A DNA stretch of 64,000 bases from an uncultured Bdellovibrionales bacterium (lineage in GTDB: Bacteria > Bdellovibrionota > Bdellovibrionia > Bdellovibrionales > UBA1609), in contig CAILEP010000031.1 of assembly GCA_903833275.1 (NCBI GenBank), forward strand, positions 223,401 to 287,400, given 5' to 3'. Shown piece after piece: positions 17,692-57,329 of the stretch (within the stretch, counting starts at the first letter, position 1; each line of letters starts with the position of its first letter). A program made the translations under genes and the position numbers. The notes under the pieces were generated by a model. That model searched no databases and had not been told where the DNA came from. It saw only the letters and a list, made by a program, of their open reading frames with translations.

Positions 17692-19074
17692 TCAATTTTT
17701 TTCGTTTTCTTTTTCAGACATACTATCGACTGCGTCGCGAATTCTTTGAGATTGGCTTTGTTGTTCAGGTTCTTTTTGAGACCGAAATCTAAATTGCTTA
17801 GCATTAATTTGATACCGTTTGAGGCGGTCGTGTAAGGTGCTTTTTGGTATTCCGAGTTCAAAGGCCACTCGCCTTTGATTGCCATTATAAAGTCGTAAGC
17901 GATCGACGATCATGCCCCTTTCGATTTCTTGTAAGCTGCGCCCACGCGTCGAAGACTCGCGCAGCCCTAAATCAAAAATCGGAAGGTTTTGAGCCGGCGG
18001 TTTTGATTCGATCAGCTTTCGAAGGTCTTCGACCGAAATGGTTTGCCCCGGGTAGAGGGCGGTGGCGCGTAAGATCACGTTTTTTAATTCGCGAATGTTT
18101 CCGGGCCAGTCGTGCTTGTGCATTTGAGCAAGTGCTTCGGGTGAGAAGCGGACGCCGAGGCCTTTTGCGAAAAAAGTTACGAGATCTTCGATGTCTTCAA
18201 TGCGATTTCGAAGGGCCGGTGGATGAATCTGTAGGATGTGAAGCCGATAGTAAAGGTCAGAGCGAAAGCGGCCGTCATTTACTCGGCGCTCAATGTCCTG
18301 ATTTGTTGCCGCTACAATTCGAACATCGGTAGAGATTGGGCGATCAGAGCCGACCGGTTTGATTTCGCTATTTTCTAAAGCGCGTAGAAGTTTGGGTTGT
18401 AGGCTTATGGGTAGGTCGCCAATTTCATCGAGAAAAAGGGTGCCTCCGCGGGCCGTTTCAAAAGCGCCTTTGCGTTCGCTATTAGCGCCGGTGAAACTAC
18501 CTTTGACATGCCCAAAGAGCTCGCTCTCAATCAGGCTTTCTGAAAGAGCACTGCAATTGACGCCCAGAAATGGGCCGTGTGCGCGCCCCGAAAATTTGTG
18601 CGCTAAATTCGCAAGGACCTCTTTGCCCGAGCCCGACGGGCCTAGAATCAATATTGGGTGGGGGCTTTGGGCCATCGCCGGCAGTCTTTGGAGTTCGTCG
18701 TTCCAAACAGTATTGCGACTCGATAGAAAAAGTGGGTTGAGGTCATCATCTTTTTCTGTAGAAAAGACCATTTCGGTTACGCCAATTCGAATGCGATCTT
18801 GATCTCGAAGCGGGGCTTCATTGATGCGACTGCCATTAAGATAGGTGCCATTCAGAGACCGCAGATCGCGCAACAGATAGCCCTCGTCAAGACGCTCGAT
18901 GCGGGCGTGACGAAGCGATGCGAATTCATCTGCAATTTGAATGGTCGCAATAGGGTCTCGACCGATTAGGTTAAAGTTCGCGAGTTCATAGGTTTTTCGA
19001 GTTTTGCTTTCAATTAAGGTCAAGTAGCCGTGTTCGGCGCTTTTGCTTCCGGCGTATAGATTCATGGTTTTCAA
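17692..19074 (-). CDS. Sigma-54-dependent activator with N-terminal FHA domain
   Basis: There are three domains over 460 residues. An FHA domain (about 28-105; LIGRDPIATIQI, SLRHARIE, LRSLNGTYLNG) would bind phosphothreonine. A AAA+ domain (about 125-355) has Walker A GPSGSGKE, the sigma-54 contact loop GSFTGAN in place of GAFTGA, and GGTLFLDEIGDLP. A Fis-type helix-turn-helix (NQRRVAFELGIPKSTLHDRLKRY) follows. FHA instead of a receiver domain implies control by a Ser/Thr kinase rather than a histidine kinase. The GAFTGA Ala-to-Ser change is tolerated in some members. Sigma-54 itself (rpoN) is encoded in the window at 38434. The target genes are unknown. Confidence 0.95.
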   Translation of the reverse strand: MKTMNLYAGSKSAEHGYLTLIESKTRKTYELANFNLIGRDPIATIQIADEFASLRHARIERLDEGYLLRDLRSLNGTYLNGSRINEAPLRDQDRIRIGVTEMVFSTEKDDDLNPLFLSSRNTVWNDELQRLPAMAQSPHPILILGPSGSGKEVLANLAHKFSGRAHGPFLGVNCSALSESLIESELFGHVKGSFTGANSERKGAFETARGGTLFLDEIGDLPISLQPKLLRALENSEIKPVGSDRPISTDVRIVAATNQDIERRVNDGRFRSDLYYRLHILQIHPPALRNRIEDIEDLVTFFAKGLGVRFSPEALAQMHKHDWPGNIRELKNVILRATALYPGQTISVEDLRKLIESKPPAQNLPIFDLGLRESSTRGRSLQEIERGMIVDRLRLYNGNQRRVAFELGIPKSTLHDRLKRYQINAKQFRFRSQKEPEQQSQSQRIRDAVDSMSEKENEKN

Positions 19075-23997: not shown

Positions 23998-24018
23998 TCG
24001 CAATAGTCAATATTGCGA
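23998..24018. promoter_or_regulatory. Perfect 8-bp inverted repeat (candidate operator) in a divergent promoter region
   Basis: TCGCAATA (23998-24005) and TATTGCGA (24011-24018) are exact reverse complements separated by GTCAA. The site lies 40 bases before the start of the nitroreductase gene and 21 bases before ATG 24040 of the barrel gene. The arm length and spacing fit a dimeric helix-turn-helix regulator. It also overlaps the alternative TTG start at 24013, arguing against that start. Confidence 0.55.
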
Positions 24019-24039
24019 ATTCACTTTACGATTCTTGTT

Positions 24040-24798
24040 ATGCGCTTTGTATCAAAAATCGTAATTCTAATTCTTTTGGCCCTATCTTCGAATCGGGTGC
24101 GCGCAGAAACCATTGAGTTTTCAGAAGAAGAACTTGCTACCGAATCAGTAATGCCCGTCTTTGATAAAACAGTTGTGGTGCGCGAACGCAAAGTGAAAAC
24201 GGCCAGCCGACTCGAAGTGGGTGGTGGGTTCGGCTTTAATTTGGCTGAGCCCCTCTATGATCAAACGGTTTTTAATATTGTCGGGGCTTATCATTTCGAC
24301 GAAATTAACGGCATGAATTTAATTTCTATGTTCTTAAGTTCACAGCTTTCGTCAGCGGGTAATGATTTAAAAGCCGGCAAAGGTCTCGCGCAGGGCCCCG
24401 GTTTGCCGGGCAGCTATGATGCAAGCCGAGCGCCAACCGCACAGAATATTACTTTCGCAAATTATCAGTTCACGGCTTATTATGGCAAAATTAGTGTTAC
24501 AAAAGATTTTGTGATGAATCTTTCGCTCTATGGCTTTGGCGGCCTAGGCATGGTTAAGTGGACTGACACTTCAAAATTCGGGCTCGACGCCGGTTTTGGC
24601 CAGAAATTGTACTTCTCACCCAACTCTGCAGTTCGATTTGATATGCTTTTGGCAGTGTATCAGGGCGCGGACCCAACTGATCCAAAAACATCTCCAGGTT
24701 ATCTGCCAGCAGGCGGCGCCCCCTTGGGGAGCTCATCATTTAATACAACAACTTACTTTCGGCCATTCATGACTTTCGGCTACGTCTATCTATTTTAA
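24040..24798 (+). CDS. Outer-membrane beta-barrel protein, GltA/GltB-like
   Basis: ATG 24040 gives a signal peptide (MRFVSKIVILILL..., cleavage near RVRA). The mature part has a short acidic N-terminal region, then an amphipathic beta-barrel pattern (RLEVGGGFGFNLAEPLYDQTVFNIVGAYHFDEINGM is split by turns; later FVMNLSLYGFGGLGMVKW and FGQKLYFSPNSAVRFDMLLAVYQG). It ends in an aromatic residue (YVYLF) as expected for outer-membrane insertion. This resembles the barrel proteins of the myxobacterial Glt gliding complex and their relatives in Bdellovibrio. The downstream gene is a second protein of the same kind. Identification rests on pattern and context. Confidence 0.78.
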   Translation: MRFVSKIVILILLALSSNRVRAETIEFSEEELATESVMPVFDKTVVVRERKVKTASRLEVGGGFGFNLAEPLYDQTVFNIVGAYHFDEINGMNLISMFLSSQLSSAGNDLKAGKGLAQGPGLPGSYDASRAPTAQNITFANYQFTAYYGKISVTKDFVMNLSLYGFGGLGMVKWTDTSKFGLDAGFGQKLYFSPNSAVRFDMLLAVYQGADPTDPKTSPGYLPAGGAPLGSSSFNTTTYFRPFMTFGYVYLF

Positions 24799-24879
24799 CT
24801 GCAAAACAAGACAGCCTTTGGTCTAGCGATTTTTCTAAATGCTTAGATTTAAACGCGAAAGTTGTTATTCTTTACGTGT

Positions 24880-25701
24880 ATGCGGTTAGCAACTTTAGTT
24901 TCTTCAACATTGTTATTGGTCTTTTCTTCAGCGGGATTTTCGCAGATCTTGCCGCGCGAAGATAAGCAGGCTGAGGCTGGTCTCGAAGATCTCTACGATA
25001 AATTTGAGACCCAAGAGAGTCAAAAAGCCGAAAAGAAGAAGGCCAGTGAGGCAGCCAAAGAAGAAGAGAAAAAAGCACCCCAGGATATTAACAAAATATC
25101 TGAGCTTGTTCGCCTCTCGCCATTTGATGATATCGCCGTCATCGAAAAAAGATATTTACCAAAGACAAATAGATTTGAATTATCGGCCAGCGGTATGGTG
25201 AGCACGAACAATGCATTTTTTAACAACGTAGGTGCCAACGTACGTGGCGCATTTTTCTTTAATGAGAAGTACGGCGTAGAGGGTATTTATCAGTATATTT
25301 CAAGTTCAGAGCGCCCAATCACCAAGGGCCTTTCTAGCAATCAAAGCGTTTTGACGACTGCGCTCGTTGAGCCGAAGAGCTTTTATGGTGCTACATTTAA
25401 GTGGGCACCTATATATGGTAAAATGGCATGGTTTCAGCAAAAAATTGTGCCGTTTGATATCTATTTTACTCCAGGGATAGGCGTGACGAACACCGCCAAT
25501 GGTTCAAGCACTTCGGTTACTCTTGGCGTCGGGCAACTTTTCGCCTTGAGCAAATCATATGGTGTTCGGTGGGATTTCAATTGGAACTTCTACTCAGCCG
25601 CCACGACGGATAGCACCGGCACGACGGCAAATAGTGCACATAGTGATTTATTTCTAGGTGTAGGTTTTAGCTTCTTCATACCGGAGGCAACATACCGATG
25701 A
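24880..25701 (+). CDS. Outer-membrane beta-barrel protein, second GltA/GltB-like paralogue
   Basis: ATG 24880 begins a signal peptide (MRLATLVSSTLLLVF..., cleavage near GFS). A Lys/Glu/Ala-rich helix (about residues 25-65) precedes the barrel, whose strands share features with the preceding gene product: NRFELSASGMVSTNNAFFNNVGANVRGAFFFNEKYGVEGIY is split by turns, then YFTPGIGVTN and HSDLFLGVGFSFF. The shared layout (family start ELSA/EVGG, FNEKYG versus FDEING) suggests gene duplication. The stop overlaps the start of the TPR gene (ATGA at 25698). Confidence 0.76.
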   Translation: MRLATLVSSTLLLVFSSAGFSQILPREDKQAEAGLEDLYDKFETQESQKAEKKKASEAAKEEEKKAPQDINKISELVRLSPFDDIAVIEKRYLPKTNRFELSASGMVSTNNAFFNNVGANVRGAFFFNEKYGVEGIYQYISSSERPITKGLSSNQSVLTTALVEPKSFYGATFKWAPIYGKMAWFQQKIVPFDIYFTPGIGVTNTANGSSTSVTLGVGQLFALSKSYGVRWDFNWNFYSAATTDSTGTTANSAHSDLFLGVGFSFFIPEATYR

Positions 25702-27332
25702 TCGCGCCTCGTAGAAAATATTTATCAACGTCGCTTGTCTTGGCGGTTCTGGCGCTCTCGCTTGGTGCGATTGCCCCATCTTCGGCAGGGGTTGCAAGCA
25801 AGAAGGCCTCGTCACAGTCACTTACTGAATCTGTGGCCCGCGGGGCGAGTCGGTCAGATTCGGGCGGCCAAGGCGAAGGGCGCGAATTAGCTGAGGCATT
25901 GCAGTTTGCAAAAACAGGCAAATATGCTGAAGCTTCAACGCGGCTGTTTCAATTGAGTTTGAGCCCACGATTTGTTGAAAAGCGCATGCAGATTCGCTAT
26001 CTGCTCGGCCTGATGCTCTACCAAATGAAAATGTACCAGCTCTCGGCATTTCAATTTATCAGCGTCATTCGAGAGGGCAATAATAAGTATATTTCGCAAA
26101 GCTTAGAAAAATTGTCATTAGCGGCGAACGAGCTTGGCGACGAGACGCTACTTAATTACGCAATTTCGAGGGTGAAGGCCGAAAGCTTTCCGGCTGTGCA
26201 CCGGGACATGCTGTTCTATCGAATCGGAGAGTTTCAGTTGCGAAATGAGCAATATAAAGAGGCAATCCGAAGCTTTGAAATGGTGCCTGATCAGAGCCCC
26301 TTGCTGGATAAAACGCTCTATTTAAAAGGCTTGGCTTACGCGCAATCAAGCGACGCGGCTTCAGCCGCTAAAGTGTTTAATGATTTGATTGAAAGAAAAA
26401 AAGAGGCTCCGGTTACGGATATGGCTCGAGTCGCCGCAATCATGGGCAAGGCGCGCGCGCTCTATCAAAGCAAAAATTGGGACGAAGCGATTCAGACCTA
26501 TAGAGAAGTTCCGCGTGATTCTGAGCTATGGCATGACACATTATTTGAGTCGAGTTGGGCGATGCTACGATCTGGCCGCTTTCGTTCAGCAATTAGCAAT
26601 TTTCAGTCATTGCATTCCCCCTATTATGAAGAATCCTACCTGCCCGAATCTTTGCTTCTGCGATCGATCGTCTATCTCTATATATGCCAATACGACGAGA
26701 TGGATAAAGTGCTCTTGCTATTTAGTAAGATATATCGACCTGTATTCAAATCAGTCAGTGATTATTTAGAAAAGGTGCAAAACCCGGTTCAATACTTCAA
26801 CGATGTCGTTAAGGTCATTCAAGCTTCGGAGCGGCCCGGGTTTGACCCTAGTCAATTGCACTCGAATGTGCCCTATCTATTGGTTCGAAAAGTAGTGAAA
26901 GAAGGCGATTTTCAGCGTTCTTATTCATACATCAAAAAGCTAATCGCAGAACGTCGTATAATTCGAGCGATGCCCGGCGCATGGAAGGCCTCGGCAATAG
27001 GAAAGTATTCACTGCAGACTCTTGACCGTCGAATTGAGCGGGCGCGCGCCAAAGCCGGTCGTGAGATCCGTAACCACATGATCGTGGTGAAGGCCGAATT
27101 GGTCGACCTGTTTGAGCAAGAAGGTTTTATTCGATATGAAATGATCAATGGCAAAAAAGAGCTATTGAAAAAACGCCTGGCAGGCAAAGATTTGCCGAAG
27201 GGGCAAATCGGCGAAGACAACTCGCGTGATTACTATATTCAAAATGGTTTTGAGTATTGGCCATTTCGCGGTGAGTACTGGCTAAATGAGCTGGGCAATT
27301 ACCACTATGTCGGGACTCAAAGCTGTGAATAA
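25698..27332 (+). CDS. Exported TPR protein, GltE/AglT-like
   Basis: A signal peptide (cleavage near SSAG) is followed by TPR-like helix pairs: ELAEALQFAKTGKYAEASTRLFQ, AIRSFEMVPDQSPLLDKTLYLKG, WDEAIQTYREVPRDSELWHDT. The C-terminal third is helical and ends in an aromatic-rich stretch. TPR scaffolds of similar size occur in the Glt gliding machinery (AglT, now GltE), in the periplasm. Length (544) and order (barrel, TPR, large TPR) support that relation, but TPR homology alone is weak evidence. Translation is coupled to the barrel gene by ATGA overlap. Confidence 0.78.
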   Translation: MIAPRRKYLSTSLVLAVLALSLGAIAPSSAGVASKKASSQSLTESVARGASRSDSGGQGEGRELAEALQFAKTGKYAEASTRLFQLSLSPRFVEKRMQIRYLLGLMLYQMKMYQLSAFQFISVIREGNNKYISQSLEKLSLAANELGDETLLNYAISRVKAESFPAVHRDMLFYRIGEFQLRNEQYKEAIRSFEMVPDQSPLLDKTLYLKGLAYAQSSDAASAAKVFNDLIERKKEAPVTDMARVAAIMGKARALYQSKNWDEAIQTYREVPRDSELWHDTLFESSWAMLRSGRFRSAISNFQSLHSPYYEESYLPESLLLRSIVYLYICQYDEMDKVLLLFSKIYRPVFKSVSDYLEKVQNPVQYFNDVVKVIQASERPGFDPSQLHSNVPYLLVRKVVKEGDFQRSYSYIKKLIAERRIIRAMPGAWKASAIGKYSLQTLDRRIERARAKAGREIRNHMIVVKAELVDLFEQEGFIRYEMINGKKELLKKRLAGKDLPKGQIGEDNSRDYYIQNGFEYWPFRGEYWLNELGNYHYVGTQSCE

Positions 27333-30300
27333 AAATCGCACCTTACTTGCCCTCATCATTTTCGCCTTTGTCGGTACTTTGCAAATGCCGCGCTCGACAT
27401 TTGCCCAAGAAGCGCAGGTGAAGAAAAGCGCCAAAAAAGCACAGGCCGCTAAGGGTGAAGAGAAGTCCAAGACAGTTGGCGACATATTAAAGAAAATTGA
27501 ACGAAAATCAGAAAAAGTTAATATTCAAAAATCTCAAATCAGTTTGCCAAAATTTCAAGCTCAACAGAAGGCGGCGGCCCCAACAGTTGATTTGAAGTCA
27601 GTAAAGCCGCCGCCATCGAACAAACTTTACTACGAAGAAGGCACCGACGAGGCCGAGCTTGAGCGTGTTACCGATGAGGGGATCAATCAGCTCTACGGCT
27701 TATCGCAACAATACAAAATGAGCCCCCGCCGTGGTGAACTCTGGTTGCGACTGGCCGAACAGTACGTCGAAAAAGCGCGTTTGATTGAGTTTCGCGTTAT
27801 GACCAAGAATGACCAAGCGATGGCGGCATTTCAAGCTGGCAAGCTTAAGCAGCGCCCTAAAGTGGATCTATCAGCATCGAAAGAATATAACAAAAAAGCC
27901 ATTCAGCTTTACGAGTGGTTTCTGCGCGACTTTCCGAAAGATCAAAAAATCGATCAAGCGCTTTTCTTTTTGGGCTTTAACTACTTTGAAATCGGCGATT
28001 CGAAAAAGGGTCAAAGTTACTATGTGAGATTGACCAAAGAATTTCCGAACTCGCTTTACGTCAGCGAGTCCAACTTTGCGTTGGGCGAATATAATTTTGA
28101 AAACGACCATTTCAAAGTCGCACTCGAATATTACGGTCGTGTGGCCACTCAAAAGAACAATCGCCTTTACGCATTTGCTCTCTACAAATCATCTTGGTGC
28201 TACTATAAAATGAACCAGTCGCTGAAGGGTCTTAATTACCTCGAGCAAGTGATTTACGAAGGGCGAAAATCGAAAGGTCAGAAAGACAAATCGATTGGCG
28301 GTGTTAGTCGAATTCGTCTGGCCACTGAGGCGATTAAAGATCTCATCGTATTTTTCGCTGAAGCCGGTGATTACAAGAAATCGAGAACTTATTTTGAAGC
28401 GGTTATTGGCGAAAAAAGTGCCAATGCGAATTTAGCAAAGCTCGCCTACTTTTATGTTGATACCGGAAACCGGGCCGCAGCTCGATTCGTATTTCGAGAC
28501 CTAATCAGCCAAGACCCAAACTCAGTTAAGGCCTATGACTATCAGTACGCGATTGTTAAAGTATATGGTGCATCTGGTGACCCCGCTGTTTTCAAGAAAG
28601 AACTTTATGATTGGATCGCCCAATATGGGCCGGGCAGTTCTTGGCAAAAGACCAATGAAGCCGAGAAAGAGGCCGTCAAGAAAGCCACAGAATTGATGGA
28701 ATCGCTTTTGCGAAACAACGTACTGCAGAATCATCAGATGGCGCAAAACTCTAGAACCAAGTCGGCGTTTACAAATGCCAAAGCTGGTTACGAACTGTAT
28801 TTTCAGACCTTTCACGAAGGCTCTAAAATAGACGAGATGCACTTCTTTTATGCAGAATTGCTTTTTGATGTTAATGATTTTGAAAAGGCCGCCTATCATT
28901 ACACGTGGGTCGTTGAGAATGCCCCGACCAGTGCTTATTACGATAAATCGCTGCTAAATTCTCTGCTCTCATACGAAAAGCGCCTTCCGACGGACGAAAA
29001 AATTCGCAAGATCGTTGGTAACACAACCGAGCCAATCGAATTCGATCCGTCGATTAAGGCTTTTGAAAAGGCCGCCTTTCGTTTCGTTGAAAAGTCGCCC
29101 AAAGGCGACAACGTCGTTGCCGTTAAATATCGGCTAGGGGCGCTCTATTATCTTTTTAATCAATTCGACGCCTCGATCAAGTTGCTGATGGAAGTTATTA
29201 AGAAGTACCCAAAGACTCAATATGCTAAGTTCTCTGCCAACCATTTGCTCGATATCTACAATTTAAGAAAAGATTACGTTGGGCTGCAGAATGCGGCGAA
29301 CGAGATTCTGGCCATCCCCGAACTTGCGCACTCAGAGATTGGCGCCCAAATTCATGACATTAAATTACGAACGGACTTCAAGGTCGCCAAAGACCTCGAA
29401 AACAAAAAAGACTATGGTGGCAGCGCCAAAATGTATGAGTCTTTTGCCATGCGAAATAAGGGCAGCGACCTATCGAATATGGCGATGTTCAACGCGGCAG
29501 TAAATTACGAGCGCGCCGGTGACATCATTAAGGCCATTGGGGTCTATGCGATTATCGCGACCTCGACTGACAAAAAGGCTGCGGACATTAAAGCCAAGTC
29601 GATTAAGTTTTTGCCCGTCCTTTTTGAGAAAACGGGTCAATATGCTAAGGCGGCTCAGTCTTATGATGCATTCGCCAAGGCCAACCCAAAAGACCCATTA
29701 TCAGTCGAGTACCTCTTCAATGCTGCGGTCATTTACGATGGCATGAATGCATTTACCCAAGCTATACACAATTACGAAGTCTATTTTGAGAAGCATAAAG
29801 GGCACGACAAATTTGAGGTGCTATTTCTAATTGCCAAAATCTATCAACGAATGGGGCAAGCGGATCGGGCGATCAGCGAATACAATAAATACATAAATAG
29901 CGGGACTTCAAATCGAACTGGCATCGTTGAAGCCACATTTACGATTGCAAAATTGCATGAGCGACTAGAGCGCGGCAAAGTCGCGCGCCAATGGTTTGAG
30001 AAGACTGTGGCGGTACAGAGACGGCTTTCGTCTTCGGGTAAGCCGGTCGGGGCCTCGTTTGCGGCTGAAGCGAAGTTTAAGTTGGTGTATCGGTATTACG
30101 ACGATCTCGTTTCGATTCGAATTCCGCTAAATCCCGATGCTCAGGCTGGGGCGCTCAAGAAGAAACTCGCGATTTTGAATACCTTGAAAGATCAATTAAA
30201 GAGCGTTGTGGCTTATGATGACGGGCCGCAAATCGTTGCTGCACTCACGACTCAAGGTCAAGCGTTGCATCACCTCTATACTTCGATTATGAATGCGCCG

Positions 30301-30549
30301 GTCCCGAAAGGCTTTAAGCCTGACGAGATGAAAGAGTATAAGGCTGGGGTGCAAAAGCTTGCGGACCCATTTAAAGATCAGGCCGTCGAGGCTTATCAAT
30401 CGGCGATTCAACGAGGGCACGAACTCGAGGCCTATTCGGGTGCGCTCACCGTTGCGATGAAGAACTTGGCGTTGCTAAAGGGCGAAAAAGGCGAAGTTAA
30501 CGAGACCAAGGCAATTATCACGAAGTTGCCTGATACGATGGGGCTATAA
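27307..30549 (+). CDS. Large exported TPR protein, AgmU/GltD-like
   Basis: About 1080 residues. A signal peptide (cleavage near STFAQ) starts from ATG 27307 or GTG 27325; an in-frame ATG at 27286 is less likely. After a Lys-rich linker, TPR/Sel1-like helix pairs fill most of the chain, e.g. YEWFLRDFPKDQKIDQALFFLG, YYVRLTKEFPNSLYVSESNF, LLMEVIKKYPKTQYAKF and NYEVYFEKHKGHDKFEV. The P-x(4)A/E spacing repeats every 34-38 residues. It is close in size and architecture to AgmU (GltD), the large TPR protein of Myxococcus gliding. The start overlaps the preceding TPR gene. It probably forms an extended periplasmic scaffold. Confidence 0.8.
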   Translation: MSGLKAVNKNRTLLALIIFAFVGTLQMPRSTFAQEAQVKKSAKKAQAAKGEEKSKTVGDILKKIERKSEKVNIQKSQISLPKFQAQQKAAAPTVDLKSVKPPPSNKLYYEEGTDEAELERVTDEGINQLYGLSQQYKMSPRRGELWLRLAEQYVEKARLIEFRVMTKNDQAMAAFQAGKLKQRPKVDLSASKEYNKKAIQLYEWFLRDFPKDQKIDQALFFLGFNYFEIGDSKKGQSYYVRLTKEFPNSLYVSESNFALGEYNFENDHFKVALEYYGRVATQKNNRLYAFALYKSSWCYYKMNQSLKGLNYLEQVIYEGRKSKGQKDKSIGGVSRIRLATEAIKDLIVFFAEAGDYKKSRTYFEAVIGEKSANANLAKLAYFYVDTGNRAAARFVFRDLISQDPNSVKAYDYQYAIVKVYGASGDPAVFKKELYDWIAQYGPGSSWQKTNEAEKEAVKKATELMESLLRNNVLQNHQMAQNSRTKSAFTNAKAGYELYFQTFHEGSKIDEMHFFYAELLFDVNDFEKAAYHYTWVVENAPTSAYYDKSLLNSLLSYEKRLPTDEKIRKIVGNTTEPIEFDPSIKAFEKAAFRFVEKSPKGDNVVAVKYRLGALYYLFNQFDASIKLLMEVIKKYPKTQYAKFSANHLLDIYNLRKDYVGLQNAANEILAIPELAHSEIGAQIHDIKLRTDFKVAKDLENKKDYGGSAKMYESFAMRNKGSDLSNMAMFNAAVNYERAGDIIKAIGVYAIIATSTDKKAADIKAKSIKFLPVLFEKTGQYAKAAQSYDAFAKANPKDPLSVEYLFNAAVIYDGMNAFTQAIHNYEVYFEKHKGHDKFEVLFLIAKIYQRMGQADRAISEYNKYINSGTSNRTGIVEATFTIAKLHERLERGKVARQWFEKTVAVQRRLSSSGKPVGASFAAEAKFKLVYRYYDDLVSIRIPLNPDAQAGALKKKLAILNTLKDQLKSVVAYDDGPQIVAALTTQGQALHHLYTSIMNAPVPKGFKPDEMKEYKAGVQKLADPFKDQAVEAYQSAIQRGHELEAYSGALTVAMKNLALLKGEKGEVNETKAIITKLPDTMGL

Positions 30550-31512
30550 GTGTTGTTTCGATCAGATAGAATTATTTTAACAAATATAGCCGTGGCCTTG
30601 GTGGCTGGCGTGCTTTGCTTCTCGACAACCGTGCGCGCTCAATTTGATGAGAACCCAAAAGGCAACAAGGCCAGGGCGAACAATAATGATAGCAGTGACC
30701 TCGATAAAGATTTTGATGAGACCGGTGATAAAAAGACCGATCCGGCCAAGGGCTTGCCTGAAGAGCATACTGAAGACGCCGCGGATGCCTCTGCAGAACA
30801 TAACGATTTTGCTAAGTCCGCAGAGGTGACCAAGGCTGAGTTAGACGAATTGAGTGCCGCCCTTAAAAAGCGATCTGAACCACAATTGGTTAAAGCCGCC
30901 GCGGCAATTTTGAGCAAAAACCCCAGCCATCTTGAGTCTCTTAATGCGATGGCGGTCTACTATTTTGAAGCTAAGAAATACGGCATGGCAAAGTTGCTAA
31001 TAAAAAGGGCGATGAAAGATCATCCGAAAGAACCGGCACTCTTTAACAATTTGGGTATTATTTATTTGTCAGAGGGCGAGACTCGTTCCGCGATTGAGTA
31101 TTTTCGAAAAAGCATCGCTGCCCGAGCCGACTACCGTATCGGCGCCACCAATTTGGGTTCTATCTACCTGGATTATCGCGACTACAAGCGATCGGTATCG
31201 CCTCTTGAAGAGGGTTACAAGGCGGCGCGTTCGGACGTACGTCGGGGTGATGCCACTGCGGTCGAAATTGCGAATAACTATGGGGTCGCCTTGATGGGCA
31301 CGGGCGAGAATGCCAAGGCAGAAGAGGTTTTTAGCGAAATCGTAAGTTCGAGTGCTCGTAATCCGGTGCCGTATTTGAACTACGCGATTCTCTTGGTCGA
31401 GGTCCAGAAAAAGAAAAATGATGCTGTTCGGGTACTAAGTAAATTAAAATTTATGACTGATGACCGCGAGATTTTACGACGAGTCGAAGCGCTCGAGCGT
31501 AAACTTGAATAA
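30550..31512 (+). CDS. Exported TPR protein
   Basis: A GTG start directly follows the preceding stop codon. A signal peptide (cleavage near VRAQ) is followed by an acidic linker (residues 36-95) and three or more TPR units: LESLNAMAVYYFEAKKYGMAKLLI, PALFNNLGIIYLSEGETRSAIEYF and IGATNLGSIYLDYRDYKRS. Periplasmic location is inferred. It belongs to the same run as its neighbours and probably serves as a connector. No more precise assignment can be made. Confidence 0.76.
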   Translation: MLFRSDRIILTNIAVALVAGVLCFSTTVRAQFDENPKGNKARANNNDSSDLDKDFDETGDKKTDPAKGLPEEHTEDAADASAEHNDFAKSAEVTKAELDELSAALKKRSEPQLVKAAAAILSKNPSHLESLNAMAVYYFEAKKYGMAKLLIKRAMKDHPKEPALFNNLGIIYLSEGETRSAIEYFRKSIAARADYRIGATNLGSIYLDYRDYKRSVSPLEEGYKAARSDVRRGDATAVEIANNYGVALMGTGENAKAEEVFSEIVSSSARNPVPYLNYAILLVEVQKKKNDAVRVLSKLKFMTDDREILRRVEALERKLE

Positions 31513-31529
31513 ACGGAGTCTTTAGACTT

Positions 31530-31865
31530 ATGAGCGTGCGCATACTTTTTTTCACTACAACTTTACTTTCTTCAATCATATTGGGGATGGGTGCCTTTGC
31601 TCAGGACACCTCGCTTTCGCCTCGCGTAAAAAGCCCGACCGAAAAACAAAACGAAAAGCATTCGAACAACGGCGGCGATAAGCGAACTACGTCGATTAAT
31701 TTCGAAGACGAGTTGGTTGAGGGTGAAGTTAAAAAACCTGAACTGTTATACTTATTGCAGAAGAAACAATTTAATTTCAAGCGACTTATAAAGTTACGAG
31801 AAAATTTTTTGCCAGAGATGAATAGAACATCAGAAGAAATTGGTTTGGGCCGAGGTCAAAATTGA
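31530..31865 (+). CDS. Small exported protein of the motor cluster
   Basis: The 111-residue protein has a signal peptide (cleavage near GAFAQ). A polar linker precedes a short conserved-looking segment INFEDELVEGEVKKPELLYL, then FKRLIKLRENFLPEMNRTSEE. I recall a similar pattern (EGE/DLKxP ... LIxLRxxFxxEM) in small proteins encoded beside FHA/TonB-type genes in myxobacteria; this should be checked. The stop overlaps the TTG of the next gene by four bases, so they are co-translated, pointing to a partnership with the FHA-TonB protein. Confidence 0.7.
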   Translation: MSVRILFFTTTLLSSIILGMGAFAQDTSLSPRVKSPTEKQNEKHSNNGGDKRTTSINFEDELVEGEVKKPELLYLLQKKQFNFKRLIKLRENFLPEMNRTSEEIGLGRGQN

Positions 31866-33871
31866 AGACACCGATTTTTCTACGCGTTTATCAGAGCGGC
31901 AAGTTGTTGAGCGTAAAACAATTTACCGATGAGCAAATTGTTATAGGCAGCAATGAGGGCATACAGCTGACGTTGGCGGGCGAGGGTGTTTTCCCGTTAC
32001 ACGCTTGTATCGACGAACGAGATGCGGGATATTACATTTTAGATCTCGGCTCACAGCTGGGTACGTTCAAAAACGGGCACAAAATATTTGATGAGGCCAT
32101 CGAGTCGGGTGATGAGCTTCAAATCGGGCCCTATAAAATTGAATTCTTTATTGGTTTACCAAAACCAACGTCGGCACCAAAGGGGGCTTCGACAGCGCCG
32201 AGCTCGCCGTCGAATTCTGATAAGGGAGCTCTCAATGCCGGCCCGCCTTCCATAAACGACAAGAAAAATGATAAAAAGAAAAAGAATCTAGGCAACGGTG
32301 TGCAGGTCGTAGAAGAAAATTCGAAATCTCCGGTGCCGACGATCACGCGAATGCCGGTTGAGGCTGCGTCGACAGCCTCACGGGGTGATATCAAGTCAAG
32401 CGACAGAGCAGAATTGGATGCCCCGAGCATTAGTTCGAAGCAGATGGCGCAGCGCTATCGCAATTCAAAAGGCACGATTGTCGAAGTCATTGTCGCTTGG
32501 CGCGACCGCGTGATTGGTAGTTATCATTTTCGAGAAGTCGGTGAAGTCACCATCGGGTCCGATGAGACTTCGACGATTCAAATCCCACTCGTAGGGGCCT
32601 CTCGAACCAAGCACACTCTTCTTAAAGTCGAAAATGCCGTTCGCGTTTGTTTTACCCAAGATATGTCGGGTGATTACTATAAAGACGATGAGCATCTTTC
32701 ACTTTCAGACTTAAAGCGAAAAAATCGGGTTGTTCAGATTGAGCAAGGGTTTGAAATGGCTTTGGGTCAAGGTGAGATGGTCCACCTCAGTTTGCACGGC
32801 GATCTAATTTCTATTTATATTCACTACGTGCAAGAGACACCTGTGCCGATCATAGGCTCTTTGTTCGATCTCACGACCTCTGAAGCGACAGCCGTTCTTA
32901 TGTCGATTGTTATCGCGGCCATTTTTGGACTTTATATGGCGCTCTATTCGCCAAAAAACCTCGAAGAAGAGACGAAGCTTGAGGAGCCTATAAGGCGCGC
33001 TGTTGTGACCTTTAATCCTCCTGAAAAGAAAATCGTAAAGGTTGAGTCGGAAACCAAGCCGGAGCAGAAAAAAGTCGTTAAGGTTGCAGATAAAACCGAA
33101 CAGACGACGACAAAGCCTGACCCAGGCAAGGCAAGTGATATTCGGCCAAGCCAAGAAAATAGAAAAACAAAGCAGGCGAGCTCGACGGTTAACCAAGGCG
33201 CAACAGTTAAAACCGGCAAATCGGGTGCGGCTCTAGAGAGCGAAAAGAAAGATGTCACGCAAAAAGGTTTGCTTGGCGGATTTGGCGGTAAGGGTTTGCA
33301 AAAAGAACTTTCAAAAGCTTATCAGGGCACCCAGGGCTTGATTGGTGATGCCAACGAGAAAACTGGTTTTTCGGGTTCGACAGAAGAGAGAACGGGCGAC
33401 AATTTAGGCGGCCGGTTGAAAAATGTGGGCGCGGGCGGCAAAGGCTCGTCAACTTACGGAGTTCAAGGTGTCGGCACCAAGGGTAAGGGCACGGCGAGTG
33501 CCGGTTCGGGTTCGGGTGGCATCGGTAAGAAAGGTCGCGTCGATCTGAATATCGGCGAGTCTGAAGCGGAATTTACCGGCACGATTGATCGAGAAGCGAT
33601 TCGCCGAGTGATCCGAGAAAATATTAAGCAGTTTCAATTTTGCTACGATCAAGCGCTTCGAAAACATTCGGATGCTTACGGCAAAGTTGAAGTGAAATGG
33701 TTTATTCAAGAGCACGGTCGAGCTACAAATACGGTCGTAAAGAGTAATACTGTTGGTGACGCTGAAATGGGTAACTGCATCGCGCGTGTGATTAGAGGGC
33801 TGACGTTTCCGGAGCCGCCTCAAGATCAGATTGCTGAAGTGACTTATCCGTTCGTGTTCGCATCGCAGTAG
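31862..33871 (+). CDS. FHA-TonB trans-envelope protein, GltG/GltJ-like
   Basis: The order of parts over 669 residues: an N-terminal FHA domain (about 1-105; IVIGSNEGIQLTL, LDLGSQLGTFKNG); a Ser/Pro/Lys linker; a second FHA-like domain (about 200-320; VTIGSDETSTIQIP); one membrane helix (about 341-361); a long Lys/Gln/Thr then Gly-rich periplasmic linker; and a C-terminal TonB/TolA-like domain (about 573-669; DREAIRRVIRENIKQFQFCYDQAL, YPFVFASQ). This matches the gliding proteins PglI (GltG) and AgmX (GltJ), which carry signals or force from cytoplasm to outer membrane. TTG start, coupled to the preceding gene. Confidence 0.88.
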   Translation: MKTPIFLRVYQSGKLLSVKQFTDEQIVIGSNEGIQLTLAGEGVFPLHACIDERDAGYYILDLGSQLGTFKNGHKIFDEAIESGDELQIGPYKIEFFIGLPKPTSAPKGASTAPSSPSNSDKGALNAGPPSINDKKNDKKKKNLGNGVQVVEENSKSPVPTITRMPVEAASTASRGDIKSSDRAELDAPSISSKQMAQRYRNSKGTIVEVIVAWRDRVIGSYHFREVGEVTIGSDETSTIQIPLVGASRTKHTLLKVENAVRVCFTQDMSGDYYKDDEHLSLSDLKRKNRVVQIEQGFEMALGQGEMVHLSLHGDLISIYIHYVQETPVPIIGSLFDLTTSEATAVLMSIVIAAIFGLYMALYSPKNLEEETKLEEPIRRAVVTFNPPEKKIVKVESETKPEQKKVVKVADKTEQTTTKPDPGKASDIRPSQENRKTKQASSTVNQGATVKTGKSGAALESEKKDVTQKGLLGGFGGKGLQKELSKAYQGTQGLIGDANEKTGFSGSTEERTGDNLGGRLKNVGAGGKGSSTYGVQGVGTKGKGTASAGSGSGGIGKKGRVDLNIGESEAEFTGTIDREAIRRVIRENIKQFQFCYDQALRKHSDAYGKVEVKWFIQEHGRATNTVVKSNTVGDAEMGNCIARVIRGLTFPEPPQDQIAEVTYPFVFASQ

Positions 33872-33908
33872 TTTTTAGATGAAGTGGTTTGTAATTTAAG
33901 GGGAGGTA

Positions 33909-34610
33909 ATGAAAGTGGATCCAAAAGCAGCAGCATCGGCGGTTGAGATTGCCAATAAGTGCGCCGATAGCTCGAACTTTATCATGCAATCGTTTTGTGA
34001 GGGCGGAGCGGCCATGTACGTTATCGCCGCCGTCGGTTTGATCACCGCATTTCTCGTCGTCGAGCGTTTATTTACGCTGAGCCGATTAATGGTGAGCAAG
34101 TCGAGCGTAAATGAAAACATCTTTAGCATGATATTGCGAGGTGATGTTCGGCAGGCAATTGCCTTTTGTGATCGCAAGTCAGTGCCGCTAACGGCAACAC
34201 TCAAGGCTGGCCTTGTGCAGGTGTTAAACAAGCGACCCGATGAAGAGGTGCAGGTGGCGATGGACGCGGCAGTGCTTCGCGAAACGCCTAAGCTCGAAGG
34301 CTGGGTTTCGTTTCTGGCCGTTTTTGGTAACGTTTCAGTTTTGATCGGATTGCTTGGTACCATTTCAGGTCTGATCGAATCATTTCGTGGTGTGGCTCAA
34401 GCCGATGCCGCTAAGAAAGCCGAATTGCTTTCAAATGGTATTTCTGAAGCACTTCACTGTACTGCATTCGGACTGCTCGTCGCGATTGTGGCGATAGTGG
34501 CCTATGGATTTTTTCAATTGCGAATTGGTCGAGCGCTTACGGATATGCAAGAGAGCTCGATGACATTAATGAATTTGGTCTGCTCGAATCGGGACAAAAT
34601 AAAAGACTAA
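33909..34610 (+). CDS. MotA/TolQ/ExbB-type proton channel, AglR-like
   Basis: Three membrane helices are visible (about residues 33-58, 135-165 and 185-215), with the large cytoplasmic loop between the first and second, as in TolQ/ExbB. Helix 2-3 carry the family pattern GLLGTISGLIESF and ALHCTAFGLLVAIVAIVAYGF. The good ribosome binding site (GGGGAGG, 6 bases before ATG) marks the start. Together with the two following genes it makes a TolQ-TolR-TolR set like aglR-aglQ-aglS, the gliding motor of Myxococcus. It would convert proton flow into motion of the FHA-TonB/TPR scaffold. Confidence 0.92.
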   Translation: MKVDPKAAASAVEIANKCADSSNFIMQSFCEGGAAMYVIAAVGLITAFLVVERLFTLSRLMVSKSSVNENIFSMILRGDVRQAIAFCDRKSVPLTATLKAGLVQVLNKRPDEEVQVAMDAAVLRETPKLEGWVSFLAVFGNVSVLIGLLGTISGLIESFRGVAQADAAKKAELLSNGISEALHCTAFGLLVAIVAIVAYGFFQLRIGRALTDMQESSMTLMNLVCSNRDKIKD

Positions 34611-34623
34611 ATTAGAGGGGCTC

Positions 34624-35094
34624 ATGGCACAAATCGAAGAAAGTGGTAAAGGCAGATCGTCGAGTGTGGACATAAATATTGTCCCGTTCATCGATTTAAT
34701 GTCGGTGCTTGTAATTTTTCTTTTGATTACAGCTGTGTGGTCGCAAGTGTCGATGATTCAAATCGGAAGTTCGATTTACGGTAAGAAAACCAACGATCAG
34801 AAGGCCGAGCCTCCCCCTCGTGCTGAAGTATTATTTCGCGTTGATATCAAGCCGTTCGGGCACCGTGTCGTTGTCGGCACTCAGACCATTGAGATCCCCA
34901 AAATTGGCGCGGATTACGATCTGGGCAAATTGTCGATAGAGCTTAAAAAAGTAAAAGAGATTTATCCCGATAAGGTGGACTGCGTTGTTACCATGTCTGA
35001 TGAACTGGCTTATGTGCATTTGATTGACGGTATGGATGCGCTATTGCAATCCGGCTTTCCGCAAATTTCGGTTGCAACCGGGGGGGCTCAGTAA
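34624..35094 (+). CDS. ExbD/TolR-type motor subunit, AglQ/AglS-like
   Basis: The 156-residue protein has one N-terminal membrane helix with the conserved acidic residue: INIVPFIDLMSVLVIFLLITAV. The Asp is expected to take part in proton conduction with the channel partner. The periplasmic part has a TolR/ExbD-like fold with a typical end (DELAYVHLIDGMDALLQSGFPQISVATGG). AGAGGGG lies upstream of the ATG. The stop overlaps the start of the next TolR-type gene by one base (TAATG). Confidence 0.92.
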   Translation: MAQIEESGKGRSSSVDINIVPFIDLMSVLVIFLLITAVWSQVSMIQIGSSIYGKKTNDQKAEPPPRAEVLFRVDIKPFGHRVVVGTQTIEIPKIGADYDLGKLSIELKKVKEIYPDKVDCVVTMSDELAYVHLIDGMDALLQSGFPQISVATGGAQ

Positions 35095-35669
35095 TGGCTA
35101 TTCGAATACCTGGGTTGCGAGATCGTCACGGTCGTCGGTCGTCTGTAAAGCGAAGTGTAGTGGCGGTGTTATCACTGACCGCGATGGTTGATCTTTTTAC
35201 GGTGTTGGTGGTTTTTCTTCTGCAAAATTATGCGACGACAGGTGAGGTCATTGAAATCCCTGAAGGGGTTAAATTACCTACCGCAAAGGAAGTAAAAGAT
35301 CTAAAGCCGGCGAACGTCGTAATCGTTTCAGAAAAAGGTCTTGCGCTCAATAGCGATCGAATTATGGATTTTCAACAGGTGCGAGCTCAAACCGATTGGG
35401 AGCTTGGCCCGCTAAAAGATAAGCTTCAGCAATTAATTGCCAAAGGTGAAGAAGACAAAAAAGCGCTTACAAGTCAGTTAAAGAGCGCAGTTGAGAAAAT
35501 GAAGGTCGGCGATAAGGCCGTGGAGCAAGAGGTCGATGCCTTTCGAAAAGTGACCATTCAGGCCGATAAACAATTGGATTTTCTCACTCTCAAAAAAGTA
35601 ATGTACACCGTAACCGAAGCGGGCATTATCGAAATTAATTTTGCCGTTATGAAAACGCCCGACAAATAA
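35094..35669 (+). CDS. ExbD/TolR-type motor subunit, second AglQ/AglS-like
   Basis: The basic cytoplasmic N-terminus (RDRHGRRSSVKRSV) is followed by a membrane helix with the conserved Asp: LTAMVDLFTVLVVFLLQNY. The periplasmic region has an inserted helical stretch (about residues 105-160) compared with the first subunit. Two different TolR-type subunits beside one TolQ-type channel is the arrangement known from AglRQS. It ends the plus-strand cluster; the convergent GYF-PilZ gene stops four bases away. Confidence 0.9.
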   Translation: MAIRIPGLRDRHGRRSSVKRSVVAVLSLTAMVDLFTVLVVFLLQNYATTGEVIEIPEGVKLPTAKEVKDLKPANVVIVSEKGLALNSDRIMDFQQVRAQTDWELGPLKDKLQQLIAKGEEDKKALTSQLKSAVEKMKVGDKAVEQEVDAFRKVTIQADKQLDFLTLKKVMYTVTEAGIIEINFAVMKTPDK

Positions 35670-35673
35670 ATAA

Positions 35674-36561
35674 TCAAGCAGCGATCGGGACGTTCTTTCT
35701 AGATTTTAATACAAAATCAATTATAGACGATTTGGCTTCTTGGCTGATGCTTTGAAAGCGAAAGCCATAATTTCCCAATTCGGTCATATATTGAACCGAG
35801 GCCTTAGCAAGAATTGTTTGGGCCAATTGCTCAGACTTTATTTCGATATCTACGACTTGGCCGATAGAAAGGTGTGTTTCAATGCTTGCCACTCTAAATC
35901 CGCCTTCAGAAATGGATTTGATTTGGCCAATTATTATTTGATCATTAAATCTAATAACGGCACTGGCACGAATGGGCGCTCGTGCATGTTCGCGGCGGTT
36001 CAATCCGAGTTCATCGAGGAGGTCGCCAAAATCGTAAAGGTCGGCCCAGGATTTCATTCCTTTAGTCCAGATGAGAATCTCATCTTTACTCTGTACGCCG
36101 CGCAGTTCGTTAATCATCTCGGCCCGAGTCAGTGGCCCTTTTGACGCCCCGTCGATTGCATAATGCCAAAGTTGTACGACCGAACTTTCGGTGGCCGTCA
36201 CTGCGGGGCTGTTGGCAGAGTTGTCGGTAGAGCTAGAATTGGCACGGCCGGTGTCATTTTCCAAAGAAATGCTGTCAGCCGAGGTTTCAGCAAAAATACT
36301 GGTTGGGCTGCTGTCGGGGCTTTTCAGCATCGAAGGGTTCATTGTCATTGGTGACGCCACCTGATGGTGCGCTAGCTTGAATTGCTGTTCTAAGGATGGT
36401 AATTCTTTGGTCCACCAGCTGAGGGTTTGCCAATGCGACTGTGGGCGTCCCCAAATGAGACACTCCGCGGGTAGTTGGCCTTCCGTCATCTGAGCGTTAA
36501 CCTCGTCAGACGTAAAGGGTCCCGTTACTTTTTCTTTTTGACTAATAAACCATCGATTCAT
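35674..36561 (-). CDS. Cytoplasmic GYF-GYF-PilZ protein (possible cyclic-di-GMP receptor)
   Basis: Two GYF_2-type domains (about 1-50, RWFISQKEKVTGPFTSDEV; and 131-175, WHYAIDGASKGPLTRAEM, both ending in IW-G...W) are joined by a Ser/Thr-rich linker. A C-terminal PilZ domain follows (about 188-290). PilZ has the RxxxR motif at Arg190-Arg194; the second motif reads SISEGG, with Ser where Asp/Asn is usual. It should therefore be tested whether it still binds c-di-GMP. GYF domains also occur in gliding protein AgmX/GltJ, so location beside the motor cluster suggests a regulatory link. No signal peptide or membrane helix is seen. Confidence 0.9.
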   Translation of the reverse strand: MNRWFISQKEKVTGPFTSDEVNAQMTEGQLPAECLIWGRPQSHWQTLSWWTKELPSLEQQFKLAHHQVASPMTMNPSMLKSPDSSPTSIFAETSADSISLENDTGRANSSSTDNSANSPAVTATESSVVQLWHYAIDGASKGPLTRAEMINELRGVQSKDEILIWTKGMKSWADLYDFGDLLDELGLNRREHARAPIRASAVIRFNDQIIIGQIKSISEGGFRVASIETHLSIGQVVDIEIKSEQLAQTILAKASVQYMTELGNYGFRFQSISQEAKSSIIDFVLKSRKNVPIAA

Positions 36562-38433: not shown

Positions 38434-39879
38434 ATGGCCATGAACCTGAAAATGTCGATGAAGCTTTCGCAACAGCTGCGCATGACTCCGCAGCTGCAGC
38501 AGGCCATAAAGCTCCTGCAGCTTTCGCGCGTTGAGCTCGAAGAAGAGATATCGAAAGAGCTGAGTGAGAACCCTATTCTCGAAGAGATTCAAGAAACTGC
38601 TGATGAAGACCCGCGGGCAAAAACGCAATTGACCGAAGACCTTAAAGCGGCTGAAGCGGTGGCCACGGGTGATAGTGACCCGCGCAAGCAAGATGAGTTT
38701 GAATGGGAGAACTACGTCGAAAGCATGTATAAACCGCCGCAGCAATCTGGTTTTGAGGGCGGCGAAGAGGTCATGAATTATGAAAACGTGGTTTCGACCA
38801 CGCAGACCTTGAGTGATTATTTACTTTGGCAGATGAGTTTGTTCGGTTTTAGCGAAGAAGAAGAAGGTACGGTCTCGATATTGATTAGCTATCTCAATGA
38901 TGATGGCTACCTAGAGACTTCATTCGACGAGATCGCAAAAGAAGAGAGTGTCGAGGCGAGTGAGCTCGCCGTGATGTTACCGTTCTTGCAAGAGTTTGAT
39001 CCGCCGGGGGTTGGGGCTCGTAACCTCAAAGAGTGCCTGCTGATTCAAGCCAAAATGTTGCAAGAGGACACCACCGATCTGGTTAAAATTATCGATAATC
39101 ATTTGCCAGATCTCGAGCGCAAAAATTATCCGGCGATTGCGCGCGCCCTGGGCGTCGACGTACAAGAAGTCGTCGAGATGTCTCAAATTATTTTGGGTAT
39201 GGAGCCCAAGCCTGGCCGTATTTTCATTTCAAACGAAACCCAATACATCACCCCCGATGTTTATGTTTATAAAGTAGCCGAACAATATGTGGTTTCATTA
39301 AATGAAGACGGTCTCCCGCGCTTGCGAATATCAAATCTCTATCGGAACTTACTCAAAAAAGACAATAAAGATCAGGGTTCGAAAAACACTCAAGAATACG
39401 TGCAAGATAAATTGCGTTCGGCAATTTGGTTAATTAAATCGATTCACCAGCGGCAGCGCACGATTTATAAGGTAGCGGAAAGCATTGTTAAACATCAGAC
39501 TGAGTTTTTTGATAAGGGCCCAGCGTTTATCAAGCCTATGATTTTAAGAGATATTGCCAACGACATCGGCATGCACGAGTCGACGGTTTCTCGGGTGACG
39601 ACGAATAAGTATGTGCATACTCCACGCGGTATTTTCGAGTTAAAATACTTTTTCAATTCGGGCATTTCAAAGACCGACGGCGATTCGGTGGCGAGCGAGT
39701 CAGTTAAAATTAAGATCAAAGAAATGGTCGATACCGAAAACCCCAAAAACCCTCTTTCGGATCAAAAAATAGTCGAGTTGTTGCGTAAGGACGGCATTGA
39801 TATCGCGAGAAGAACGGTAGCGAAATATCGCGATATTCTCAAAATATTACCTTCAAGTCGGCGCAAGCGGTACTTTTAG
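38434..39879 (+). CDS. rpoN: RNA polymerase sigma-54 factor
   Basis: All regions of sigma-54 are visible: the Gln/Leu-rich activator-contact region I (KLSQQLRMTPQLQQAIKLLQ), the acidic region II, the core-binding region (about 110-300), the helix-turn-helix with HESTVSRVTTNKYVHTPRG, and the RpoN box ARRTVAKYR at residues 458-466 followed by LPSSRRKRYF. Sigma-54 recognises -24/-12 promoters and needs AAA+ activators such as the FHA-type one at 17692. The length (481 residues) is typical. It follows lptB by 17 bases. Confidence 0.98.
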   Translation: MAMNLKMSMKLSQQLRMTPQLQQAIKLLQLSRVELEEEISKELSENPILEEIQETADEDPRAKTQLTEDLKAAEAVATGDSDPRKQDEFEWENYVESMYKPPQQSGFEGGEEVMNYENVVSTTQTLSDYLLWQMSLFGFSEEEEGTVSILISYLNDDGYLETSFDEIAKEESVEASELAVMLPFLQEFDPPGVGARNLKECLLIQAKMLQEDTTDLVKIIDNHLPDLERKNYPAIARALGVDVQEVVEMSQIILGMEPKPGRIFISNETQYITPDVYVYKVAEQYVVSLNEDGLPRLRISNLYRNLLKKDNKDQGSKNTQEYVQDKLRSAIWLIKSIHQRQRTIYKVAESIVKHQTEFFDKGPAFIKPMILRDIANDIGMHESTVSRVTTNKYVHTPRGIFELKYFFNSGISKTDGDSVASESVKIKIKEMVDTENPKNPLSDQKIVELLRKDGIDIARRTVAKYRDILKILPSSRRKRYF

Positions 39880-57321: not shown

Positions 57322-57329
57322 GGGCAACT

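Follow-up and report, generated by a model that had tools for sequence, protein, structure and literature searches.

In a 64,000-nucleotide stretch of the genome of an uncultured Bdellovibrionales bacterium (contig CAILEP010000031.1, positions 223,401 to 287,400; hereafter, the window), positions 24,040 to 36,561 contain ten co-directional genes for a putative gliding machine (gltA-gltB-gltC-gltD-gltE-gltF-gltG-aglR-aglQ-aglS) followed by a convergent gene that encodes a GYF-GYF-PilZ protein (hereafter, GYF-PilZ). The cluster is of a known kind, the Bd0828-0838 type of Bdellovibrio, and its ten-gene block is predicted from sequence to be a Bdellovibrio-type Glt/Agl core complex that drives gliding and prey contact. 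The most informative part of the cluster is the GYF-PilZ gene. The cluster type, an attachment defect of an aglS mutant, the control of gliding by cyclic dinucleotides and one PilZ gene were known before, and what is new is the association of GYF-PilZ genes with agl motor genes. We lean, by a modest degree, toward the interpretation that the block is a Glt/Agl core for gliding and prey contact and that GYF-PilZ would serve as a cyclic-dinucleotide clutch of its motor. The source genome comprises 3.08 Mb in 35 contigs and is 97% complete.

Association of GYF-PilZ with agl Motor Genes

AglS and GYF-PilZ were searched for in 290 genomes of the phylum, of which 98 are of the same order and class as the source; both genes were listed in 89 of these, the genomes left out being 9/98 overall and 7/47 outside the family that holds Bdellovibrio (f8). 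All linkage and homolog counts rest on the best matches listed, and distances are those between matched stretches, not gene ends. Outside f8, 31 of 40 genomes have GYF-PilZ no more than 3 kb from aglS, and 33 of 40 have it no more than 10 kb away; where the two are linked, the order is usually aglS, GYF-PilZ (convergent), lptC, lptB and rpoN.

The association recurs at a second set of genes in the source genome (locus L068):

C31:108-118 kb, co-directional: aglR2-aglQ2-aglS2-GYF-GYF-PilZ2-gltD2-TPR (tetratricopeptide repeat)-gltF2-gltG2-gltB2

Both PilZ-bearing members of the three GYF_2 proteins of this genome are encoded next to aglS genes. The third GYF_2 protein (L070:7893-9683; G000:C35) has 596 residues and two GYF domains, with no other Pfam domain at E 0.001, and no GYF gene was found at the third agl cluster on contig C7 (L069). 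A match to GYF-PilZ2 occurs in 107 of 118 genomes of the order, not all of these matches being orthologs. Among the 95 genomes with a listed AglR2, a GYF-PilZ match lies within 3 kb of it in 81 (median 95 bp), a count in which GYF-PilZ2, GYF-PilZ1 and a short Bdellovibrio-family paralog of 190-224 residues all qualify and which disregards orientation. In 30 small loci, GYF-PilZ is located directly upstream of aglR2 and co-directional with it in 12, directly after aglS2 in four and divergent from aglR2 in one; for the remaining 13, no aglR2 is seen over a distance of about 1.5 kb. In the larger loci L126, L127 and L132, GYF-PilZ directly precedes gltD2, with no aglRQS alongside.

In the Bdellovibrio genome G120, a GYF-PilZ gene of 206 codons overlaps aglR2 (L119); this second cluster is very likely the Bd1473-1483 operon, with the 206-residue product corresponding to Bd1482, the locus tags being inferred from position and content. 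A longer GYF-PilZ copy of G120 (L118) adjoins a gene for a VWA-like lipoprotein, a pair that fits Bd3099 (VWA gene) and Bd3100 (pilZ gene), again by position and content; bd3099 and bd1480 have been described as induced on surfaces and lower in Bd0367 mutants. Four other f8 genomes (G159, G180, G209 and G239) have an AglR-family gene at a distance of 1.3-1.4 kb from the first GYF-PilZ; in G209, this gene is of the third agl type and a carboxypeptidase gene separates the two.

VWA-like proteins with a KVDILWIVDNSxS motif adjoin GYF-PilZ2 at L118:8909-9895, L119:9759-10820, L120, L121 and L133, and such neighbors are also found in the small loci L108, L110, L114, L116 and L117; a VWA family in Pfam was reached, weakly, by only one of the two VWA-like proteins tested. 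CglB, a VWA adhesin, has been described as the gliding adhesin of Myxococcus. Near the second cluster, two proteins of 550-590 residues (L123:14218-15984 and L133:12543-14207) have a GYF-like GPY start, seen by eye, and a GltE profile match, and are possibly another GYF-TPR partner. Five small genomes of the source's own family, f1 (G006, G017, G018, G021 and G034; 1.2-2.0 Mb), keep AglS-like genes and have no GYF-PilZ1 match at E 0.001, with weak matches to the paralog GYF-PilZ2 in G006 and G018. In G019, GYF-PilZ is fused within a 934-residue frame with long acidic repeats that adjoins lptC (L082:8199-11003).

Composition and Conservation of the Cluster

The preliminary description of the window listed ten forward genes in a set order and a convergent GYF-GYF-PilZ gene; Pfam, NCBIfam and the sequence itself bear out all eleven and their strands, as follows.

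24013..24798 (+), GltA-type outer-membrane beta-barrel; likely start ATG 24040; TIGR04565 (OMP_myx_plus) 60.1 bits, cut-off 60; gene 1 in the conserved order
24862..25701 (+), GltB-type outer-membrane beta-barrel; likely start ATG 24880; TIGR04565 102.2 bits, cut-off 60; conserved order
25698..27332 (+), GltC, exported TPR protein; NF033756 (gliding_GltC) E 2.7e-61, 208 bits, under the equivalog cut-off of 450
27286..30549 (+), GltD, large exported TPR protein; likely start ATG 27307; TPR families, best TPR_6 at 5.3e-23; named from position and orthologs
30550..31512 (+), GltE, exported TPR protein; NF033758 (gliding_GltE) E 1.3e-17, 64 bits, equivalog cut-off 225
31530..31865 (+), GltF/CglF, small exported protein of 111 residues; NF033764 (gliding_CglF) E 2.6e-13, 50 bits, equivalog cut-off 90
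31862..33871 (+), GltG, 669 residues; NF033760 E 5.2e-75 over residues 1-668, 253 bits, equivalog cut-off 650; NF033768 95.7 bits, cut-off 40
33909..34610 (+), AglR, proton-channel motor subunit (MotA/TolQ/ExbB family); PF01618 4.6e-27; two trees
34624..35094 (+), AglQ, ExbD/TolR-type motor subunit; PF02472 1.8e-13
35094..35669 (+), AglS, second ExbD/TolR-type motor subunit; PF02472 4.3e-12
35674..36561 (-), GYF-GYF-PilZ protein; PF14237 2e-16, PF07238 4.7e-12; conserved place

The proposed relation to Glt proteins is supported by matches of the GltC and GltE models to one TPR protein each, of the CglF model to the small exported protein and of the GltG model to the FHA-TonB protein. All four matches remain under the equivalog cut-offs, as does GltC of G120 (188/450 bits), and no gliding model is among the NCBIfam matches of GltD. 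The N-termini of GltC, GltD and GltE look signal-like by eye, and GltE shows no lipobox by eye, despite the word lipoprotein in the NF033758 model name. GltG is laid out as a cytoplasmic FHA domain, a proline-rich linker, a membrane helix near residue 343 (the position of its most hydrophobic 19-mer) and a periplasmic AgmX/PglI (TonB-like) tail. Neighbor overlaps, described earlier as 1-8 bases, are 4 bp for gltB/gltC and for gltF/gltG and 1 bp for aglQ/aglS; the gltC/gltD overlap departs from that range at 26-47 bp, depending on the choice of start, and the gltD stop directly abuts the gltE start.

Twenty loci of relatives were fetched from the families f1, f2 and f4-f11. All ten genes are present in the same order in 16 of them; thus, the gene order reflects more than chance. 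Locus L057 shows nine genes, gltE not being detected, and L049, L056 and L063 end at a contig or stretch border with the remaining genes in the same order (L056 without detected gltE and gltF). The AglR protein of the window is 61% identical to that of G120, which by eye is identical to the B. bacteriovorus protein P0122, whose UniRef name begins with "Adventurous gl."

GltJ, defined as GYF domain and AgmX/PglI tail in one protein, was not found in the source genome, the three GYF_2 proteins and four tail proteins of which do not overlap. The idea that the Myxococcus gliding part list is gathered here in one place therefore holds for the Glt/Agl core and fails for the full list, because the set is of the Bdellovibrio type with no GltJ found. 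The gathering of glt and agl parts in one place also has a precedent in the Bd0828-0838 locus, reported in 2011: in the available part of that report, GltH, GltI, GltJ and GltK are given as absent from Bdellovibrio, and Bd0828-0838 is named as the best candidate for its gliding apparatus (Luciano et al., 2011; PMC3169522).

The Motor Trio and MglA

A profile of AglR found one clearly best place in each of four Myxococcota genomes (2.5e-62 to 6.0e-61; next 1.3e-36 or weaker), and these places adjoin AglQ- and AglS-like frames; the names AglRQS at the Myxococcus locus are inferred, as the records carry no annotation. In a tree of 38 rows, which took 14 AglR1, six AglR2, two AglR3 and 13 of the 30 fetched Myxococcota loci, the clade of the window's AglR is sister to the four Myxococcota AglR with support of 91/94 (the first figure being below 95), and the Agl rows are split at 100/100 from TolQ, ExbB and five other M. 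xanthus homologs. The Agl and TolQ/ExbB rows are likewise split at 100/99 in a tree without the Myxococcus rows. AglR1 does not form one clade in the latter tree, and AglR2 plus AglR3 do not form one in the former; the shortened AglR of L049 was left out of both.

These results bear on an alternative identity of the trio, namely a Tol-Pal or ExbB-ExbD energizer of a TonB-type transporter. The trio matches no AglRQS model in NCBIfam, where the TolQ and TolR models are nearest, and for both AglR trees the tree-building program flagged long branches that meet. On the other hand, the scores of the motor proteins are far below the TolQ/ExbB equivalog cut-offs (81/221 and 56/206 bits), and a separate TolQ (L073) reaches 232 bits, above the Tol-Pal cut-off of 221. 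Such an energizer is hence very improbable, and the grouping with Tol-Pal or ExbBD that, according to the preliminary description, would refute the gliding relation did not appear, AglR grouping instead with Myxococcus AglR.

The genome also contains MglA (E 2.9e-81 to Myxococcus MglA), which has serine at position 21 and whose gene directly follows a recR-like gene (label by eye), with none between. According to the available part of Milner et al., Bdellovibrio MglA has S21, mglB is lost and gliding is independent of MglA.

Domains and Motifs of GYF-PilZ

The GYF-PilZ protein comprises GYF domains at about residues 1-57 and 132-178 and a PilZ domain at 188-285, the last with 46.6 bits against a Pfam cut-off of 22.5. 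Its best sequence match in the PDB is 7z3c, the GYF domain of Myxococcus GltJ/AgmX (E 0.054 with one sequence as query, 1e-5 and 6.9e-5 with profiles), and NF033761 matches five proteins (2.7e-10 to 6.3e-3). Judged from sequence, the GYF domain of GYF-PilZ is related to that of GltJ. A GYF-PilZ fusion was not found at E 0.001 in seven Myxococcota genomes. A 603-kb record titled Comamonas sp. KCTC 72670 (BNCN01000006.1; L142) carries a GltJ GYF domain 98% identical to that of Myxococcus and is probably mislabelled or contaminated.

The modelled PilZ domain fits best to the motility inhibitor MotI, and complexes with cyclic dimeric guanosine monophosphate (c-di-GMP) are also matched by fold. Motif counts were made in 63 of 64 sequences, one that belongs to neither of two groups being left out. 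The RxxxR motif is invariant, with R190 and R194 in 24/24 sequences of group 1 and 39/39 of group 2; S218 is kept in 22/24 and 38/39, respectively, and G221 in all.

Proposed Mechanism and Alternative Explanations

A feasible model may be that proton flow through AglR-AglQ-AglS moves GltG, the tail of which would act via GltC, GltD, GltE and GltF and the GltA and GltB barrels to push on the surface. The GYF domains would dock on the proline-rich cytoplasmic linker of GltG, or on a neighbor, and PilZ loaded with a cyclic dinucleotide would alter the hold of GltG on AglR, so that the motor is engaged or released as by a clutch. Soluble GYF-PilZ would in this way supply the GYF module that GltJ bears in Myxococcus and add a second-messenger input. 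MotI and YcgR act comparably on the MotA motor, which is related to the Agl motor. GltG is plausible as the GYF ligand on the basis of composition: it is the cluster protein with the stretch richest in proline, with medians of 11 per best 40 residues in the whole protein and 10 in the cytoplasmic part (range 3-14), compared with medians of 2-5.5 in 16 other protein sets. The force path from AglRQS through GltG to the Glt proteins is taken over for the source organism from the model of Luciano et al. (PMC3169522), which includes an AglR-GltG contact by two-hybrid. A wider version is doubtful as a whole: GYF-PilZ as a dedicated AglRQS clutch throughout the class, heir to the GYF role of a lost GltJ, with a paralog per motor cluster, S/TxSxGG or ExSxGG motifs tuned to 3′,3′-cyclic GMP-AMP (cGAMP), and the part of the missing receiver for the Bd0367 signal that triggers departure from prey by gliding.

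Several observations weigh against a clutch. GYF-PilZ is unlinked to aglS in all 49 Bdellovibrio-family genomes; in G120, aglS adjoins lptC and GYF-PilZ is about 1.1 Mb away (L065 and L074). In G009 and G012 of the source's own family, aglS likewise adjoins lptC, with GYF-PilZ at another site. G041, G026 and G019 retain GYF-PilZ next to lptC-lptB-rpoN, with the glt cluster at a separate location. The aglS-GYF-PilZ-lptC layout was thus probably present in the ancestor of the class and disrupted on more than one occasion. Being convergent, GYF-PilZ is not co-transcribed with the cluster. Among 29 genomes of the source's own family, six lack a counted GYF-PilZ1 match, one of them showing a weak match and five nothing at E 0.001, and an aglS match below 1e-30 is kept in five of the six. 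The linker of GltG is proline-poor in the nine cluster-2 sequences examined (3-5 prolines per 40 residues) and, in its cytoplasmic part, in L054, L060 and L061 (3-5); thus, a GYF-GltG contact cannot be general and the docking site in these cases must differ. The top rank of 7z3c may be due in part to the scarcity of bacterial GYF structures, and the AlphaFold model of GYF-PilZ has a predicted template-modelling (pTM) score of 0.46, so its domain arrangement is not reliable. Finally, 61/63 sequences carry a residue other than D or N at the start of the [DN]xSxxG motif (group 1, n = 24: S 11, T 8, N 2, M 2, E 1; group 2, n = 39: E 36, S 2, L 1), and because the D/N is mostly replaced, c-di-GMP binding is not assured.

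The convergent orientation, the three genomes in which GYF-PilZ accompanies lptC without a glt cluster and its distance from both in Bdellovibrio would all suit a bystander held by the lptC-lptB-rpoN neighborhood, which serves another c-di-GMP process such as envelope transport while the ten genes are still Glt/Agl. We regard this as unlikely in view of the second aglR type, within 3 kb of which GYF-PilZ was found in 81/95 genomes and with which it is co-directional in 16 of the 17 small loci that show aglR2; the four f8 genomes with GYF-PilZ 1.3-1.4 kb from an AglR-family gene and the GltJ-like GYF domain argue in the same direction. The replaced [DN]xSxxG residue raises another possibility, that PilZ is a degenerate protein-interaction fold that binds no cyclic dinucleotide and that the protein is a constitutive scaffold joining motors via its two GYF domains. 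The invariant arginines, the conserved S218 and G221 and the fold match to c-di-GMP complexes speak for a ligand, and this scaffold is somewhat unlikely. Since RxxxR and fold agree with a receptor and [DN]xSxxG does not, GYF-PilZ is not filed here as a proven cyclic-dinucleotide receptor.

It is also conceivable that the machine transmits force for a task other than gliding itself, such as prey attachment or entry or the transport of a surface polymer. An insertion mutant of Bd0838 (aglS) fails in prey attachment, killing and rounding (Duncan, 2019), four Bdellovibrio agl operons have been tied by expression data to different growth modes, and core complexes also occur in bacteria without known gliding (Luciano et al., 2011; PMC3169522). 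On the contrary, the AglR subtype is sister to Myxococcus AglR, and it was this locus type that Luciano et al. (PMC3169522) singled out for gliding; a purely different task is accordingly considered improbable, and a core for gliding and prey contact with GYF-PilZ as its clutch remains the interpretation that we favor.

Genomic Neighborhood

Upstream of the cluster are a CTP_transf_3 gene and genes for CTP synthase, a SIS/CBS protein and a nitroreductase, and downstream are lptC-, lptB- and rpoN-type genes. An FHA sigma-54 activator gene (17692-19074, -) lies upstream and rpoN (sigma-54; 38434-39879) downstream of the cluster. Type IV pilus genes, including PilM (54208) and the PilQ secretin (57318), are located at 54208-59465, about 18 kb from the gliding cluster, with a prepilin peptidase gene at 53236-54096; prey attachment by Bdellovibrio has been reported to need both a pilus gene and aglS (Duncan, 2019). 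Two tandem signal peptidase I genes at 43504-44975 overlap by one base.

Comparison with Known Systems

According to a 2026 review (PMC13104615), in its available part, the Bdellovibrio gliding machinery is unidentified and a major open challenge; c-di-GMP and cGAMP are reported to control gliding in this genus (work of 2012 and 2022). The comparative data single out a small family of GYF-PilZ proteins beside the motors as a candidate receiver of these gliding second messengers. If this is true, it illustrates how the relocation of a single domain can replace the Ras-like GTPase input of a gliding machine with a second-messenger input. A literature search, outside which subscription papers mostly and preprints wholly lay, found no paper that joins Bdellovibrio, PilZ and GYF, or "GYF domain" with "PilZ domain."

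The closest known system is the Bd0828-0838 locus of Bdellovibrio, and the comparison of synteny that the preliminary description called for bears this out: all ten genes recur in G120 (L065), of f8, in unchanged order and, as in the source, with lptC-lptB-rpoN downstream. By contrast, with GYF-PilZ about 1.1 Mb from the main locus of G120, its association with that locus is invisible there, whereas in the source organism the two are adjacent. The Bd1473-1483 operon with its PilZ gene Bd1482 is very likely the counterpart of the second cluster of the source, and Bd1482 was put forward, tentatively, as the protein that receives the DgcA gliding signal (Hobley et al., 2012; PMC3271064). That proposal, as given in the available part of the paper, concerned one PilZ gene in one operon of one species and did not extend to the GYF domain, the relation to GltJ, the recurrence across the order or the link with the main cluster.

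The likeness to the Agl-Glt system of Myxococcus xanthus consists in the sister clade of AglR, the GltC, GltE, CglF and GltG models and MglA. The two systems differ in that M. xanthus has three clusters and GltJ, whereas the source has one cluster, no GltJ that was found and a GltE without a visible lipobox. The carrier of the GYF domain also differs, being a trans-envelope protein in Myxococcus and a soluble PilZ protein in the source. Should the clutch be real, PilZ control of MotA-family motors would extend from swimming to gliding. In MotI (DgrA) of Bacillus subtilis and YcgR of E. coli, PilZ acts on flagellar motors; GYF-PilZ differs from both in its N-terminal GYF domains, in the motor concerned and in the second motif.

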